From the IMG/VR virus record IMGVR_UViG_3300035698_007840, positions 1-21,395 of that record: 21,395 bases of DNA, one strand, 5' to 3'. The notes under the pieces were generated by a model. It saw only the letters and a list, made by a program, of their open reading frames with translations, was not told the origin of the DNA and did not search any database. Shown one piece after another: positions 3,574 to 12,497 of the stretch (the stretch's first letter is position 1; each line of letters begins with the position of its first letter). This DNA comes from a virus. Position numbers and translations under genes: made by a program.

Positions 3574-4255
3574 CCTTAAAATGGATGGTGCTGCCACAGC
3601 AGAGCGCGGCACCTTTGAGGGCTACGCCTCAGTATTCGATGGGCTAGACTCCTACGAGGACACCATTCTGCCCGGCGCATTCAAAGAGAGCCTGGCCAGC
3701 GGCAACAAGGTTAAAGGCTTTGTGAACCATGATAGCCGGGACATACCCGTTATAGACTGGGTGCACATGGAGGAGGACGCCACAGGTCTGCGCGTCGTGG
3801 GTAAAATTGATTTCCGTCACCACCTTGGCGAGAGCCTGCACAGCGCCATGGAGCGTGAAGCACTGGACGGCCTTTCTATTGGCTTTGTAATGGGCAAAGA
3901 CGACTATGACTTAAAAGACCCGGAGCAAGAGGACTACCCATGGCTAGAGGGCGGCCGGGACATTAAGAATCTGGAACTACGCGAAATATCCGCTGTGACT
4001 TTCCCGGCTGATAGTGACGCAAGAATATCCGGCGTGAAGCTGGAGCGCGGAGAGCTTCTAACTCTGCGGGAGTTTGAGCAGCACCTACGGGATGTAGGGG
4101 GCTTTTCAAAATCCAGGGCCACTGCTTTTGTATCGGCATTGGCTACTGTGGCCAGGGGGGAGCCCTGCCCAGAGGTAGAGGAGAAACTAACCAGCGGCCT
4201 CCCAGAGGCTACGGAAATGCTCAAGGGCTTGCGCCAGAAACTGGCACGGTTATAG
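3530..4255 (+). CDS. Prohead protease, HK97-type (peptidase S78)
   Basis: 241 residues. It cleaves the capsid delta domain and itself during procapsid maturation. The beta-rich start GTFEGYASVF is the family signature. The likely catalytic His is H67 in FVNHDS, the likely Ser is S116 in LDGLSIGF, and an acidic residue (E152 in LELREIS) sits where the family has its third conserved residue. The C-terminal 60 residues, with a predicted helical LREFEQHLRDVGGFSKS segment, are probably the self-cleaved tail. ATG 3530 has a good GGAGGG (3516-3521) 8 nt upstream; M18 is an alternative start, but it would lose the first beta strand. The gene begins inside the portal gene. Confidence 0.93.
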   Translation: MLHKLDNPLARCQLSLKMDGAATAERGTFEGYASVFDGLDSYEDTILPGAFKESLASGNKVKGFVNHDSRDIPVIDWVHMEEDATGLRVVGKIDFRHHLGESLHSAMEREALDGLSIGFVMGKDDYDLKDPEQEDYPWLEGGRDIKNLELREISAVTFPADSDARISGVKLERGELLTLREFEQHLRDVGGFSKSRATAFVSALATVARGEPCPEVEEKLTSGLPEATEMLKGLRQKLARL

Positions 4256-4296: not shown

Positions 4297-5520
4297 ATGA
4301 CACCCGAAGAAAAAGCAACAGCGGATAAGCTAGACGCTGTAGTACAGGTACGCGCACTGGAGGCAACAGTGCTGGAGAAGTTCGAGCAGATTTCTGCTAA
4401 CGCCACGCAGCTGCGCGGTGAAATAGAAACTCTGGGCACGACCAATACAGAGACCATGTCCAAGCATGAGAAACTGCTGGAGGACTATAATGGTCTCTAT
4501 GCGCGCCTGAAAGAAGTGGAGCTGCGCGGTGCAATTCAGCCCGGCCATTTGGAATTTGGCGTAAAGGTAGACCTGGGCGCAGACTTCATTGAGTGCGACG
4601 GATTCAAGTCTGTGAAGGAAGGCGGCGCAGTCTCTGGGCGCATGGAAGTCAAAACAGCTATTGTGAACGCGACAGGCCAAGGCCAGCCGCTAGTACCGGC
4701 AGACCGCCTGGCCGGTATCGCTACCACGCCAGACCGCGTTATGCGCTTGATTCAGCTCATAAACGAAACGCCTACCAATTCCAACCTGGTGGAGTTTACG
4801 CGAGAGTCTACCTTTACCAACGCAGCTGCAGGACAGGGCACAGGCTCCAGCCCGGAATCCTTTGAGAATGTAGCCAAGGCAGAATCTGGCATTACGTTTG
4901 CACTGGCCCAGGAGCCTGTTATTACACTGGCGCACTTTGTGCCGGCGTCTAAGCAGGTGCTTGAGGATAGTGCAAGCCTGGCGAGCCATATCAACAGCCG
5001 CCTGATGTACGGCCTGGCACTCAAGAAAGAATCGGAAATGCTGACAGGTACAGGCGGTGGGCACCAGCTCAATGGCTTGTATACCCAGGCAACGGCCTAT
5101 GCTGCTTACAGCTCACCAGAGCCAGCGAACAAGATTGACCGGATCCGCGATGCTGTGCGACAGGCCCAGGTAAGTGAGTACACGCCAGACTTTTTGGTGC
5201 TCAATCCTCTGGATTGGTTTGAGATTGAGATTACCAAGGTCAGCGGTTCAGATAACCGCTATGTGGTAGGCGATCCGCGCAGCCTGTTACCGCCACAGCT
5301 CTGGGGCTTGCCTGTTGTTGTCACCAACAGCATGACAGCCGGCCAGTTTCTGTTGGGCAACTCTATGTCTGCAGAGCTGAAAAACCGTGAGCAGAGTTCT
5401 ATTGAGGTTAGCCGGGAGCACTCGGACAACTTCACCAAGAACATGGTAACTGTGCTGGCAGAGGAGCGCGCGGCGCTAATCTGTTTCCGCACTGAGGCGT
5501 TTATCAAAGGCACCCTGTAA
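4297..5520 (+). CDS. Major capsid protein, HK97 fold with N-terminal delta domain
   Basis: 407 residues. Residues 1 to about 78 are charged and heptad-like, a coiled-coil scaffold (delta) domain expected to be removed by the protease; cleavage probably falls at about residues 100-120, before the TAIVNATGQGQPLVP segment. The remainder has the HK97-fold pattern: a TPDRVMRLIQLI helix, a GSSPES/KAESGITFALAQEPV E-loop region, a long spine helix (LEDSASLASHINSRL) and the C-terminal SREHSDNFTKNMVTVLAEERAALICFR strands. A strong AGGAG (4284-4288) lies 8 nt before ATG 4297, consistent with high expression. A hairpin terminator follows the gene. Confidence 0.95.
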   Translation: MTPEEKATADKLDAVVQVRALEATVLEKFEQISANATQLRGEIETLGTTNTETMSKHEKLLEDYNGLYARLKEVELRGAIQPGHLEFGVKVDLGADFIECDGFKSVKEGGAVSGRMEVKTAIVNATGQGQPLVPADRLAGIATTPDRVMRLIQLINETPTNSNLVEFTRESTFTNAAAGQGTGSSPESFENVAKAESGITFALAQEPVITLAHFVPASKQVLEDSASLASHINSRLMYGLALKKESEMLTGTGGGHQLNGLYTQATAYAAYSSPEPANKIDRIRDAVRQAQVSEYTPDFLVLNPLDWFEIEITKVSGSDNRYVVGDPRSLLPPQLWGLPVVVTNSMTAGQFLLGNSMSAELKNREQSSIEVSREHSDNFTKNMVTVLAEERAALICFRTEAFIKGTL

Positions 5521-5606: not shown

Positions 5607-5849
5607 ATGAAACAGCTAATTATTCAACGCCCCACCCTTTGCAATGGCACCTGGTATTACCCGGCGCCCAAAGCGCAAGAAGTAGGGAACGAGGACGCGG
5701 CCACGCTTATAGGCTCTGGCAACGCGAAAGAATTCTGCACTAAGGCGGTGGACAAGACAGAAAAAAAGTCTGTGTCTGCGTCGGGGGCGGCCCCAGCCTC
5801 AGACAAGAAGACGCCCAGAAAGCGGAAGCCTGCCAACAAAAAGGCCTAG
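5607..5849 (+). CDS. Small post-capsid protein with basic tail; zero frame of a candidate -1 frameshift
   Basis: 80 residues with GGGAG about 10 nt before ATG 5607. The first 45 residues (NGTWYYPAPKAQEVGNEDAA, then TLIGSGNAKEF) follow the pattern of small proteins found just after the capsid gene in many siphoviruses: an xNGxxYxxGxxxEVxxxDAxxLIxxGxA core (DUF7210-like by pattern) followed by a Ser/Ala linker and a Lys/Arg-rich tail. Function is unknown; a head-associated role is plausible from position. The codons GAA AAA AAG at residues 52-54 contain an A AAA AAG slippery heptamer in the correct phase. The last 82 nt of the gene are also open in the -1 frame and encode conserved residues of the next protein, so this stretch is probably dual-coding. 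Confidence 0.75.
   Translation: MKQLIIQRPTLCNGTWYYPAPKAQEVGNEDAATLIGSGNAKEFCTKAVDKTEKKSVSASGAAPASDKKTPRKRKPANKKA
5762..5805 (+). promoter_or_regulatory. Candidate programmed -1 ribosomal frameshift signal (A AAA AAG plus hairpin)
   Basis: The heptamer A AAA AAG (5762-5768) is in phase with the 80-residue gene (GAA AAA AAG TCT), the same heptamer and phase as the E. coli dnaX site. Four nucleotides downstream is a foldable element: TGTCTG (5773-5778) pairs with CAGACA (5800-5805), with an inner GGGG (5784-5787) / CCCC (5791-5794) stem on a three-base loop. An alternative inner pairing is also possible. A purine-rich AAGGCGGTGG (5742-5751) upstream could act as a weak Shine-Dalgarno-like stimulator. 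After a -1 shift the next codon is GTC at 5768, which enters the VCVCVGGGPSL reading frame. Confidence 0.75.
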
Positions 5850-6379
5850 TATCGCTGCTGGTTATTAATACCAGCTACCAGATATTGCCAAGCGCTAACT
5901 ACCACTATGCAGCAGACCATAAGTGGTGGAATGTGCACCTGGGCAGGGTACAGGCAGAGCTAGCCGGCGAATCATTCACACAGTACCGCGACGAGGCAGA
6001 GCTGGACTTTGCCACCCGGCGCGGAATTCACCCTGTTCCTGCAGTAAACAATCCCGGCCTGGGGCATGAGCTGCTGCACCTGAACAGTAACAGCGGCGCC
6101 CAGGCTATCAACTTGCTATACCTGATGGGCTACAAGCGCATAATCCTACTGGGCTACGATATGCAGAATACGGGCGGCAAATCACACTGGCACGGAGACC
6201 ACCCGCTACCACTGAGCAATGGGCAATACCACGCCTACCAGTCTAGCTTTAGGCAGCTGTCTGCAGACCTGGAGGCCAGGGGCGTGGACGTTATCAACAG
6301 CAGCCCGGAGACAGGCCTAACGCACTTTAGGCGACTACCATTAGACGAGGCCCTGGCATTGCCCCAGGCTGGACTGTGA
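5768..6379 (+). CDS. DUF115/Maf-like protein, reached by -1 frameshift (257-residue fusion with 5607 gene)
   Basis: The -1 frame is open from 5744 to 6379. It encodes VCVGGGPSL, then NTSYQILPSANYHYAADHKWW, then SGAQAINLLYLMGYKRIILLGYDM and HWHGDHP. These resemble the DUF115 (MptE-like/Maf) fold: a Gly-rich GxGPSL loop, a central N-x-SY strand, a WW motif and a (I/V)xLxGxD(M/L) strand. No ATG, GTG or TTG precedes the GGGPSL motif in this frame. The first usable start, TTG 5885, would delete the Gly-rich loop and first strands. With a slip at 5762-5768 the product would be 54 residues of the post-capsid protein plus 203 residues of this domain. A single-base sequencing error is the main alternative. 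The stop overlaps the next start at GTGA. Maf proteins of this fold are linked to flagellin glycosylation; activity here is inferred only. Confidence 0.75.
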   Translation, partial: VCVCVGGGPSLRQEDAQKAEACQQKGLVSLLVINTSYQILPSANYHYAADHKWWNVHLGRVQAELAGESFTQYRDEAELDFATRRGIHPVPAVNNPGLGHELLHLNSNSGAQAINLLYLMGYKRIILLGYDMQNTGGKSHWHGDHPLPLSNGQYHAYQSSFRQLSADLEARGVDVINSSPETGLTHFRRLPLDEALALPQAGL

Positions 6380-6996
6380 GGGGCGTTATAGTTGGCACGG
6401 GGCCAAGTCTTACAGAGGACGCCTTGGAGCGCCTACGGCGCACACGCCTGCCCCTGTTTGGTTGTAACAACACTTACCAGGTGCTGCCACTAACGGCCCT
6501 GCTGGCGTGCAATCCTGAGTGGTGGGACTATTACCACCCGCGTGATGCACTACTATCAGCCGGCCGCTTTGACAAGTGGAGCTGGGACATTGAAACCTGC
6601 AGGCGTTATAACTTGCGCTATGTGCGCGGGGTTTGGGCTGATTCATTGAGCACCCACCCTGGTGTTATTCACTACGGCCACAGCTCTGGCTACCAGCTTA
6701 TAAACTTAGCTTTTAACAAATATGGCATTACAGAGCTGGTGCTGATAGGTTTCGATTTAAGATACCCGGCCGGCTACGACAGCAGCGCGAAAAAAACAGG
6801 AGGAGCGCGGCACTTTTTTGGCGAGTATCCCAAAGAGCTGGAGCACTGGCCTAGCTGTCCTGGTGGCAATATGCAGGGATTGCTGGACTGCTATAAAACA
6901 ATCGATACAGAGAAGCTGGGTATACGCATAATCAACTGTTCACCCGGCAGCGCGCTGGATTTTTTTGAAACTGGAAAGTTAGAGGAGTGGGTGTAA
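6376..6996 (+). CDS. DUF115/Maf-like protein, paralogue of the preceding gene
   Basis: 206 residues from GTG 6376, overlapping the previous stop at GTGA. The N-terminus VIVGTGPSLTEDAL is the Gly-rich loop of the DUF115/MptE-like fold. It is followed by NNTYQVLPLTALLACNPEWW, then GHSSGYQLINLAFNKYGITE (about 101-120), LVLIGFDLRYP (about 121-131), and HFF and INCSPGSAL near the C-terminus. The motif order matches the frameshifted protein next door one for one, so the pair arose by duplication or paired acquisition. It lacks the HWHGDHP motif of its neighbour; the equivalent position reads RHFFGEYP. The family includes Maf-type flagellin glycosylation factors and 6-hydroxymethylpterin pyrophosphokinases. 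A role in sugar or nucleotide-sugar transfer is suggested by the glycosyltransferase neighbours but not shown. Confidence 0.75.
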   Translation: MRGVIVGTGPSLTEDALERLRRTRLPLFGCNNTYQVLPLTALLACNPEWWDYYHPRDALLSAGRFDKWSWDIETCRRYNLRYVRGVWADSLSTHPGVIHYGHSSGYQLINLAFNKYGITELVLIGFDLRYPAGYDSSAKKTGGARHFFGEYPKELEHWPSCPGGNMQGLLDCYKTIDTEKLGIRIINCSPGSALDFFETGKLEEWV

Positions 6997-7662
6997 ATGA
7001 ACGGGCAAACAATCACCAGGGCCGTGCCATGGTCTGAGCGTATGAAATGGGACTGGCCAGACGACGACGAGAAACTGCTGCAGGTGTTCCACCAGGTGGG
7101 CGACATAGAGGCCATAATGGAATATGTGCCCAAAGACAGGCGCGTGCTTTGTGTGCAGGCCGGCGGCGCCTGTGGCGTTTGGCCGCTGCGCCTTTCAATG
7201 CTTTTTGATTTGGTAATTACTCTGGAGCCAGACCACCAGAATTTTGCAGCCCTTACCCGGAATTTAAAAAGCACAAACAACGTAACTGCAATTTATGGCT
7301 GCCTCGGTATCGATGGCAAAAGCTACGACCTGGCCAGGCACCCCACAGAACAAAGAAACGCGGGGGCTGGTTACGTCGTGGAAGCAACAGAGCCGGGCGG
7401 GGTGTTTGGTTACAGCATAGACAGCCTGGTCTGCGGTCAGTGTGATTTGATACAGCTAGACGTGGAGGGCTCGGAGCTGTTGGCACTGCAGGGCGCTGTG
7501 CAAACTATCGATAAATACAAACCCACCATTGTGCTGGAGCAAAAGGGGCTGCCCCAGTTTGCCGGCATAGACCCGCACCAGGCCACCACCTACCTGCAAA
7601 CAGTGCACCAGTACAGGGTGGCAGATACCGTGCACAGGGATGTAATTATGGTGCCGGCATGA
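6997..7662 (+). CDS. FkbM-family SAM-dependent methyltransferase
   Basis: 221 residues. FkbM-type enzymes O-methylate sugars or small molecules using S-adenosylmethionine. The SAM-binding glycine loop is VQAGGACG at about residues 53-60. An acidic end of strand 2 follows (TLEPD, 75-79), and the family signature CDLIQLDVEGSELLALQGA spans about 149-167. The C-terminal IVLEQKGL strand also fits. The gene starts directly after the preceding stop (TAAATG), with GAGGAG about 11 nt upstream, and ends in an ATGA overlap with the glycosyltransferase gene. In context it probably caps or modifies a glycan made by its neighbours. The substrate is unknown. Confidence 0.88.
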   Translation: MNGQTITRAVPWSERMKWDWPDDDEKLLQVFHQVGDIEAIMEYVPKDRRVLCVQAGGACGVWPLRLSMLFDLVITLEPDHQNFAALTRNLKSTNNVTAIYGCLGIDGKSYDLARHPTEQRNAGAGYVVEATEPGGVFGYSIDSLVCGQCDLIQLDVEGSELLALQGAVQTIDKYKPTIVLEQKGLPQFAGIDPHQATTYLQTVHQYRVADTVHRDVIMVPA

Positions 7663-8327
7663 TTACTGTCTGGTGCGTAAAGACTGGCAACAAGTACAGC
7701 AACGAGCATGTGCACAGGCTAAAAGCGATGGTGGCCGCGCACCTTACCCTGCCCCATGTATTCCGCTGCCTGTCAGACGGCCCGGTGCCTGGTATAGACA
7801 CGCTGGTGCCGGCAGAGACCTGGCCCGGCTGGTGGTCTAAGCTGCTGCTTTTCAAGTACGCCACAGTGGGCCGCCACCTGTACCTGGACCTGGACGTGGT
7901 GGTGGTGGGCTGTCTATCCAGCTGCGTTAGTTATGGAATGCTCACCATGCCGGCAAACTGGGCCCAGTCTGGCCACGGTGGCTGCCAGTCTAGTGTTATG
8001 AGCTGGGCCGGTATGCCGCCATCTATTTGGCGAGACTTCCAGCCAGAGCTGTTGGAGCCCCCGGCGCGCGGTAACTGCGGCGCATACAAAGGACTGTGGG
8101 GAGACCAGGAGTTTATTGGGGAGCGCCTGGGCTATCCGCGCCTGGGTGGGCAGGTTCTGCCCATGGCCGGGGTAGTCTCGTACAAGTACCACTGCAAGGA
8201 GCTGGCAGAGCCCCCGGAGGGTGCCAGCGTGGTATGCTTTCATGGTGAGCCTAAACCAGAGGACGTGGCAGACCAGTGGGTGAAAAATTCGCTATACACG
8301 CCAACCCCGGACAACCCCACCAGGTAG
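7659..8327 (+). CDS. Glycosyltransferase-like protein, GT-A fold with DxD motif
   Basis: 222 residues. The N-terminus (VWCVKTGNKYSNEHVHRL) and the following FRCLSDGP strand match a group of phage and bacterial GT-A-like proteins. A clear DxD metal/nucleotide-sugar motif occurs in YLDLDVVVVG (Asp77 and Asp79). Later motifs, GDQEFIGERL and VVCFHGEPKPEDV, resemble the acidic D-x-x-F and C-terminal H-G segments of GT8-like enzymes. No signal peptide or transmembrane segment is seen, so it should act in the cytoplasm. It is coupled to the methyltransferase gene by ATGA and overlaps the next gene by 52 nt. Donor and acceptor cannot be told from sequence. Confidence 0.75.
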   Translation: MITVWCVKTGNKYSNEHVHRLKAMVAAHLTLPHVFRCLSDGPVPGIDTLVPAETWPGWWSKLLLFKYATVGRHLYLDLDVVVVGCLSSCVSYGMLTMPANWAQSGHGGCQSSVMSWAGMPPSIWRDFQPELLEPPARGNCGAYKGLWGDQEFIGERLGYPRLGGQVLPMAGVVSYKYHCKELAEPPEGASVVCFHGEPKPEDVADQWVKNSLYTPTPDNPTR

Positions 8328-8938
8328 AATTTGCCGGCGCACTGCAGGCAGGTTTCGCAGTGCATGGACAGCCCAGCGAGGTGGATTTAACCGGGGGGCA
8401 GGCAGCAGACGTGCACATAGTGCTGGGCCCCTGGTTTGCTTTCCCGCGCTGGAAGTATGACCCCAGGGTGCTGTACTTAGACCGCTGCTATTTTGGAGAC
8501 CCTGCCGGCGCGGCGTCACTGCACTGGCTGGACAAAGCAGAAAAGAAATACACCTGGAGCACAGACCCAAGGCCAGTGCCGGCAGTGAAGCCCTACCGGC
8601 CCCCCGGCCGTGAGATATACCTGTGCGACTACAGCGACCACCCACCCAGCCGGTTTAAGTATTTCCGACTGCACCCGGCCCGGCAAGTGCCACAGCCAGA
8701 GCTGCTGGAGCACCTGGCCGGATTCTCGAAAGCCTACGGCAAGCGCACCACGGCGCTGGTGGACGCTGCTATAAACGGCCTGGAGGTAGAGAGTGCAGAC
8801 AGAGCCAGCCCGGTGTACCCTATAAGCGCGAACAGAGACGCCTGCAGGATTACATGGCTAAAAGGCTTGGCCTGGCATAATTGGAGCCTGGACGAAATAC
8901 AGAGCGGCAGAGCATGGGAATACTTGAAACAACTGTAA
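8276..8938 (+). CDS. GT-B-like protein of the glycan cassette (putative)
   Basis: 220 residues from GTG 8276, which lies inside the preceding gene. The early KFAIHANPGQPHQVEFAGAL looks like the first strand-helix of a Rossmann-type domain. VHIVLGPWFAF and VLYLDRCYFGD follow. Near the C-terminus KRTTALVDAAINGLEVESA (about 157-175) resembles the GT-B nucleotide-sugar site (xTTALVxAAxxGxxV), followed by SPVYPIS. The end, TWLKGLAWHNWSLDEIQSGRAW, looks like a conserved helix pair. I do not recognise a named family with certainty. Position and overlap make it the last member of the sugar cassette. It could be an inactive or accessory subunit. Confidence 0.6.
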   Translation: MGEKFAIHANPGQPHQVEFAGALQAGFAVHGQPSEVDLTGGQAADVHIVLGPWFAFPRWKYDPRVLYLDRCYFGDPAGAASLHWLDKAEKKYTWSTDPRPVPAVKPYRPPGREIYLCDYSDHPPSRFKYFRLHPARQVPQPELLEHLAGFSKAYGKRTTALVDAAINGLEVESADRASPVYPISANRDACRITWLKGLAWHNWSLDEIQSGRAWEYLKQL

Positions 8939-12131: not shown

Positions 12132-12497
12132 ATGGCTGTATTAAAAGGCATAGCGACAAGAATCACTGTTTTTTGCAAATGCAAAATCAGTCTGGGTATG
12201 GGCAAAACTGAAACACTGCGTTTTCCGGTGGAGTTCAACAAGCTGACAACAGAGCAGGCCCAGGAAAAAATCGATGCAATGAACGACCCAGACCAGCCGG
12301 AGACGACGGCTACCAGTATTCTGCGGGAAGACATACTGAGCTGGAAAGGGTTGCTGGGTGTAGACAAAGAAGAAATAGAATTCGAGGAGGGGCCCCTAAA
12401 CGATATGCTGGATCATATTGAATACACAGCCGGCCTGTTCGATGCCTGGGGGCAAGCCCAGCTGGGCACCCAGATGGCAAAAATAAAAAACTCATAA
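12132..12497 (+). CDS. Tail assembly chaperone, short form (G-like)
   Basis: 121 residues. By analogy with lambda gpG it binds the tape measure and recruits tube subunits during tail assembly. It starts at ATG 12132 with AGGAG (12118-12122) 9 nt upstream. The body is a small acidic alpha/beta protein (FPVEFNKLTTEQAQEKIDAM, then acidic GVDKEEIEFEEGPLNDMLDHIEYTAGLFDAW). The final codons ATA AAA AAC hold a slippery heptamer, after which the ribosome can slip to make the G-GT-type fusion. Position between tail tube and tape measure is diagnostic. Confidence 0.88.
   Translation: MAVLKGIATRITVFCKCKISLGMGKTETLRFPVEFNKLTTEQAQEKIDAMNDPDQPETTATSILREDILSWKGLLGVDKEEIEFEEGPLNDMLDHIEYTAGLFDAWGQAQLGTQMAKIKNS
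12485..12491 (+). promoter_or_regulatory. -1 frameshift slippery site of the tail chaperone pair (A AAA AAC)
   Basis: The heptamer A AAA AAC is in phase with the short chaperone (ATA AAA AAC TCA TAA), two codons before its stop. A -1 slip continues at CTC 12491 into a frame open to 12892. This is the usual arrangement for lambda G/GT-type chaperones. I see no strong downstream hairpin. Confidence 0.88.

Follow-up and report, generated by a model that had tools for sequence, protein, structure and literature searches.

The window, that is, the whole 21,395-nt stretch of viral DNA analysed here, carries a small post-capsid gene that is overlapped in the −1 frame by the coding sequence of an enzyme-like domain, with sugar-related genes downstream. 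The relevant features, all on the + strand, are as follows.

4297–5520, +: major capsid protein gene (HK97 fold; Pfam Phage_capsid, E 4.8e-43)
5607–5849, +: zero-frame post-capsid gene of 80 codons (80 aa), from the sequence and an AF2 model
5744–5751, +: SD-like GGCGGTGG, candidate stimulator, with GGTGG at 5747–5751
5762–5768, +: slippery heptamer A AAA AAG (X XXY YYZ when read from the ATG at 5607)
5768–5849, +: putative dual-coded stretch, deduced for the window from the frame signatures of 54 D3-type sequences
5768–6379, +: Maf/GT42/DUF115-like domain in the −1 frame (phrog_4603, E 2.8e-40; AF2 pLDDT 89.5)
5772–5814, +: possible downstream hairpin (−18.4 kcal/mol)
6376–6996, +: second DUF115-like paralogue (phrog_4603, E 1.9e-19)
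6997–8938, +: FkbM-type methyltransferase (from 6997), glycosyltransferase (from 7659) and an unassigned ORF (from 8276)

Slip site and its surroundings

Positions 5761–5767 are seven A residues and 5768 is a G. Counted in codons from the ATG at 5607, position 5762 is the third base of a GAA codon and is followed by AAA AAG, which places the heptamer in the slip phase (X_XXY_YYZ) for −1 frameshifting within the overlap of the two frames. Between the TAA at 5741–5743 and the TGA at 6377–6379, the −1 frame is open (5744 onwards), and it reads GGGQDRKKVCVCVGGGPSL ahead of strand b1. Before this strand it contains no ATG, GTG or TTG, and likewise no ATT, ATC, ATA or CTG. The predicted fusion of the two frames has 257 aa and a computed mass of 28.3 kDa. 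An earlier note on this DNA had described the phase of the heptamer, the open −1 frame free of ATG, GTG and TTG before the Gly-rich loop, and a fusion of roughly 28 kDa, and all three are borne out.

For the zero-frame protein, AF2 predicted a folded N-domain (residues 1–43) followed by a disordered, Lys/Arg-rich tail, with a mean pLDDT of 72 that was low in the tail. A scan with the 80-aa protein alone yielded no confirmed relative. In Pfam, the window protein had no match, and its best relative in this respect, the zero-frame protein of locus L128, was DUF7210-like with a score just below the cut-off (E 1.6e-5, 24.8 bits against 27 bits).

Two elements around the heptamer might stimulate slippage. 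The GGTGG lies 10–15 nt upstream of it, SD-like sequences are also found in the related loci L136 and L172, and across the homologous loci they occur upstream of 18/42 slip sites versus 149/714 control positions (p 0.0018). For this count and for the count of stop codons below, slip offsets were set by hand as the in-phase motif nearest the domain. The downstream hairpin that the earlier note reported is present, since the best closing hairpin in the window starts 3 nt after the heptamer; it is not special, however, as the segment folds no better than its shuffles (z −0.56). Hairpins after the slip sites of the homologous loci were stronger than those at control positions (p 2e-6). Covariation in the downstream stem was weak among homologues, too weak to serve as proof of the stem.

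The paralogue starts with a GTG that shares bases with the TGA ending the −1 frame (GTGA, 6376–6379), and the paralogue, the methyltransferase and the glycosyltransferase follow one another at 6376–8938 in overlapping or abutting frames. Translation of these genes may therefore be coupled to frameshifted ribosomes. Elsewhere in the window, an A AAA AAC in slip phase is located at 12485–12491, at the end of the ORF 12132–12497, and the −1 frame there is open to 12892. By its layout, which is the usual one of the tail assembly chaperone frameshift, this is a candidate G/GT signal.

Family and fold of the −1-frame domain

The AF2 model of the −1-frame domain was compared with solved structures. 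It matched the Maf glycosyltransferase 5mu5 (Z 15.2), the GT42 sialyltransferases (Cst-II, Z 12.8; Cst-I/Cst-II, Z about 12.7) and MptE 8sd5 (Z 11.1). The domain shares with these proteins the fold and the GxGPSL loop but only about 11–15% identity, and it is glycosyltransferase-like by predicted fold. The Pfam family MptE-like (PF01973, formerly DUF115) gave 18.7 bits against a gathering score of 34.6, and the relation to MptE-like/DUF115 proteins is thus one of modelled fold, not of Pfam membership. A PDB sequence search with the domain profile returned chance hits only; the fold assignment came from the AF2 model. At the level of fold, the DUF115/Maf-like assignment proposed previously holds, and the alignment of the −1-frame residues with the neighbouring paralogue at 6376 was confirmed. 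The first strand of the domain consists of residues 2–5 after the slip, so that a start inside the domain could not keep the fold.

Homologous domains are also found in the morphogenesis regions of other phages, as PmgO of P1 and ORF010 of PAJU2. Unlike the domain in the window, these standalone proteins have their own start codon and need no frameshift.

Homologous loci and alternative readings

Scans of viral contigs revealed many loci with the same layout, a post-capsid gene overlapping the domain in the −1 frame. Clustering at 80% identity gave 92 representatives, 67 overlapping and 25 non-overlapping. Pseudomonas phage PACT201 (L216) was not counted, since its frames over the region seem disrupted, possibly through indel errors in the record.

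An in-phase X_XXY_YYZ heptamer was present in 37/67 overlapping loci, as compared with 7 and 10 loci in the other two phases. When codon order was shuffled 1000 times, 3.9±1.8 loci had an in-phase heptamer, with a maximum of 10. Both phase and site are thus kept beyond chance, which is part of the conservation that the earlier note had suggested looking for. The heptamers include GGGAAAA, AAAAAAG, CCCTTTN and CCCAAAG. In E. coli, the best −1 motifs are C_CC.A_AA.G, G_GG.A_AA.G and A_AA.A_AA.G (PMC4066793), and the choice of motif in the homologues agrees with the efficiency ranking measured there. Within the stretch scanned, 30/67 overlapping loci had no canonical heptamer; many of these keep just a Z_ZZN tetramer, for example C_CCU or U_UUU, which slips less well in E. 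coli, at a like place, and a few have neither. Such loci may use weaker slips. Stop codons in the −1 frame made up 77/1260 codons upstream of the slip versus 0/1776 after it, a zero that is partly due to construction.

Start codons bear on the best-surviving alternative, in which the domain is an independent gene with a non-standard or overlooked start inside the upstream gene. No ATG, GTG or TTG precedes the GPS motif in the −1 frame of 51/67 overlapping loci (some are present in the other 16/67), as against only 3/25 non-overlapping loci. Homologues with an ATG of their own and no slippery site, which would speak against frameshifting, were found almost only where the genes do not overlap, as the frameshift hypothesis predicts. 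With the wider set of ATG, GTG, TTG, CTG, ATT, ATC and ATA, 28/61 loci still have no start anywhere from the upstream stop to strand b1.

Pseudomonas phage D3 allows a closer look. Its post-capsid gene, orf6.5, shares an overlap with the homologous domain, which lies in the −1 frame; C CCA AAG marks the point of the switch. This heptamer, the most efficient motif in E. coli (PMC4066793), is invariant and in phase in 54/54 distinct D3-type sequences (D3 and its close relatives). GenBank annotation favours a separate gene, as it starts the domain within the overlap or beyond it: in D3, orf7 begins at an ATC (locus position 3782), in PMG1 the start is an upstream position within the overlap, and in phPA-G, D14C and Psp6 it is an internal ATG. 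Moreover, a GTG or TTG lies eight codons before the slip in 50/54 D3-type sequences. That codon is CTG in some sequences, however, and 4/54 have no start. Upstream of the heptamer, the third base of the zero frame varies most (42/48 sites variable); downstream, only 12/44 such sites vary (p 3e-9), and the third base of the −1 frame takes over as the most variable. The 24 nt that separate the GTG/TTG/CTG from the heptamer keep to the zero-frame pattern. Since the coding signature switches frame at the heptamer itself, the upstream GTG/TTG was rejected as a start. Internal ATG starts would remove the first strand and the GPSL loop, and an independent gene leaves the heptamer enrichment unexplained. 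We regard this alternative as improbable. In the GenBank records of D3, phPA-G, D14C and Psp6 (loci L002, L003, L134 and L217), the domain is started inside or after the conserved loop, a systematic truncation.

Transcriptional slippage would yield the fused frame on the RNA, and the A7G run could in principle make RNA polymerase slip. It is nevertheless very improbable, because several homologous heptamers (CCCAAAG, CCCTTTN, GGGAAAN) contain no long homopolymer; the conserved phase, too, would be needless for a slipping polymerase. A sequencing error or pseudogene, with the two parts making up a single normal gene in the actual genome, is the least probable reading of all: a seven-A run is error-prone, but a count of six or eight is unlikely when two relatives (L136 and L172) keep A AAA AAG at the identical offset (−21 from the GPS motif), when dozens of loci and finished genomes such as D3 show the −1 layout with other heptamers, and when the zero frame, as the earlier note had observed, goes on sensibly, as a Ser/Ala-rich and Lys/Arg-rich tail conserved in homologues. 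Further copies of A AAA AAG occur at differing offsets in L179, L221, L255 and L264.

Other arrangements of the two parts were also observed. In contig L137, a single ORF of 264 aa directly after the capsid gene joins an N-domain and the enzyme-like domain in frame; the likeness of this N-domain to the family is weak (hhalign P 0.009, probability 4.6%). L184 likewise has a single ORF that is extended at the N-terminus, though it does not follow a capsid gene, and L159 has a coupled GTGA start. In L005, L006, L187, L192, L199 and L212, the −1 frame extends beyond the domain to 477–666 aa, and in the four of these that were scanned (L005, L006, L187 and L199) the continuation matches phrog_6804 or phrog_1962 (glycosyltransferase).

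Frameshifting and its possible role

The best explanation, and very probably the correct one, is a programmed −1 ribosomal frameshift giving a fusion of the N-domain and the Maf/GT42-like domain, as the earlier note had proposed. It is favoured because heptamers are enriched in the correct phase only, because missing starts are specific to the overlapping layout, because the coding frame switches at an invariant heptamer in D3-type phages, and because a natural in-frame fusion exists in one contig. We infer slippage from these comparisons and from the published E. coli motif data (PMC4066793). Most ribosomes on 5607–5849 would finish in frame and produce a protein of 8.6 kDa. The two lysyl-tRNAs at A AAA AAG would now and then shift back by one base, probably with the aid of the upstream SD-like element and downstream structure, and the slipped ribosomes would read the −1 frame to 6379. 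The resulting protein would consist of the small N-domain, a short linker and the Maf/GT42-like domain, with the slip inside the linker, which is predicted to be disordered and leads directly into strand b1 of the enzyme-like fold.

The dnaX gene slips at A AAA AAG with an SD upstream. The heptamer in the window is identical, with the SD-like element about 10 nt upstream, but the dnaX product is shorter, whereas that of the window is longer. In Lactobacillus phage A2, a −1 frameshift extends the major head protein, and gene 10 of T3/T7 is a further case (PMC5009743). The window resembles them in having a candidate head-region translational frameshift whose minority form would gain a C-terminal domain; it differs in that the carrier is a small post-capsid protein instead of the capsid and in the fold of the added domain, which is glycosyltransferase-like, not Ig-like. 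As with Ig-like domains, some relatives (here L137) carry the extension in frame. The tail assembly chaperone frameshift G/GT (Xu, Hendrix and Duda 2004, as cited in PMC8008677) is described there as likewise giving short and fused products by a −1 slip at varied heptamers across very different phages, in other genes and protein families. In the open-access literature searched, no report of a post-capsid/glycosyltransferase-like frameshift pair was found. Extending a head-region protein by a further domain through programmed frameshifting is already known in kind; what would be new here is that the domain is enzyme-like.

Our guess is that the fusion, made in few copies, would bring the glycosyltransferase-like domain to the head or its vicinity. 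The clues are the order of the genes, the sugar-related ones nearby and the PAJU2 homologue, which GenBank labels 'structural protein'. Together with those sugar-related genes, the fusion perhaps modifies a virion protein, which is again a guess. More broadly, and only tentatively, the locus may belong to a widespread recoding module of tailed phages, in which slippage would dose the glycosyltransferase domain of a head-region protein and hence virion modification, with heptamer-less loci relying on weaker single-codon slips (C_CCU, U_UUU).

If the frameshift reading is true, this gene pair would join the recoded ones that very different phages have kept, and it occurs even in the textbook phage D3, whose annotation cut the product short. 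Slippage could be measured on the homologous loci, whose slippery sites would form a natural set of interchangeable variants, and phages would be seen to extend head-region proteins by frameshifting not only with Ig-like but also with enzyme-like domains.
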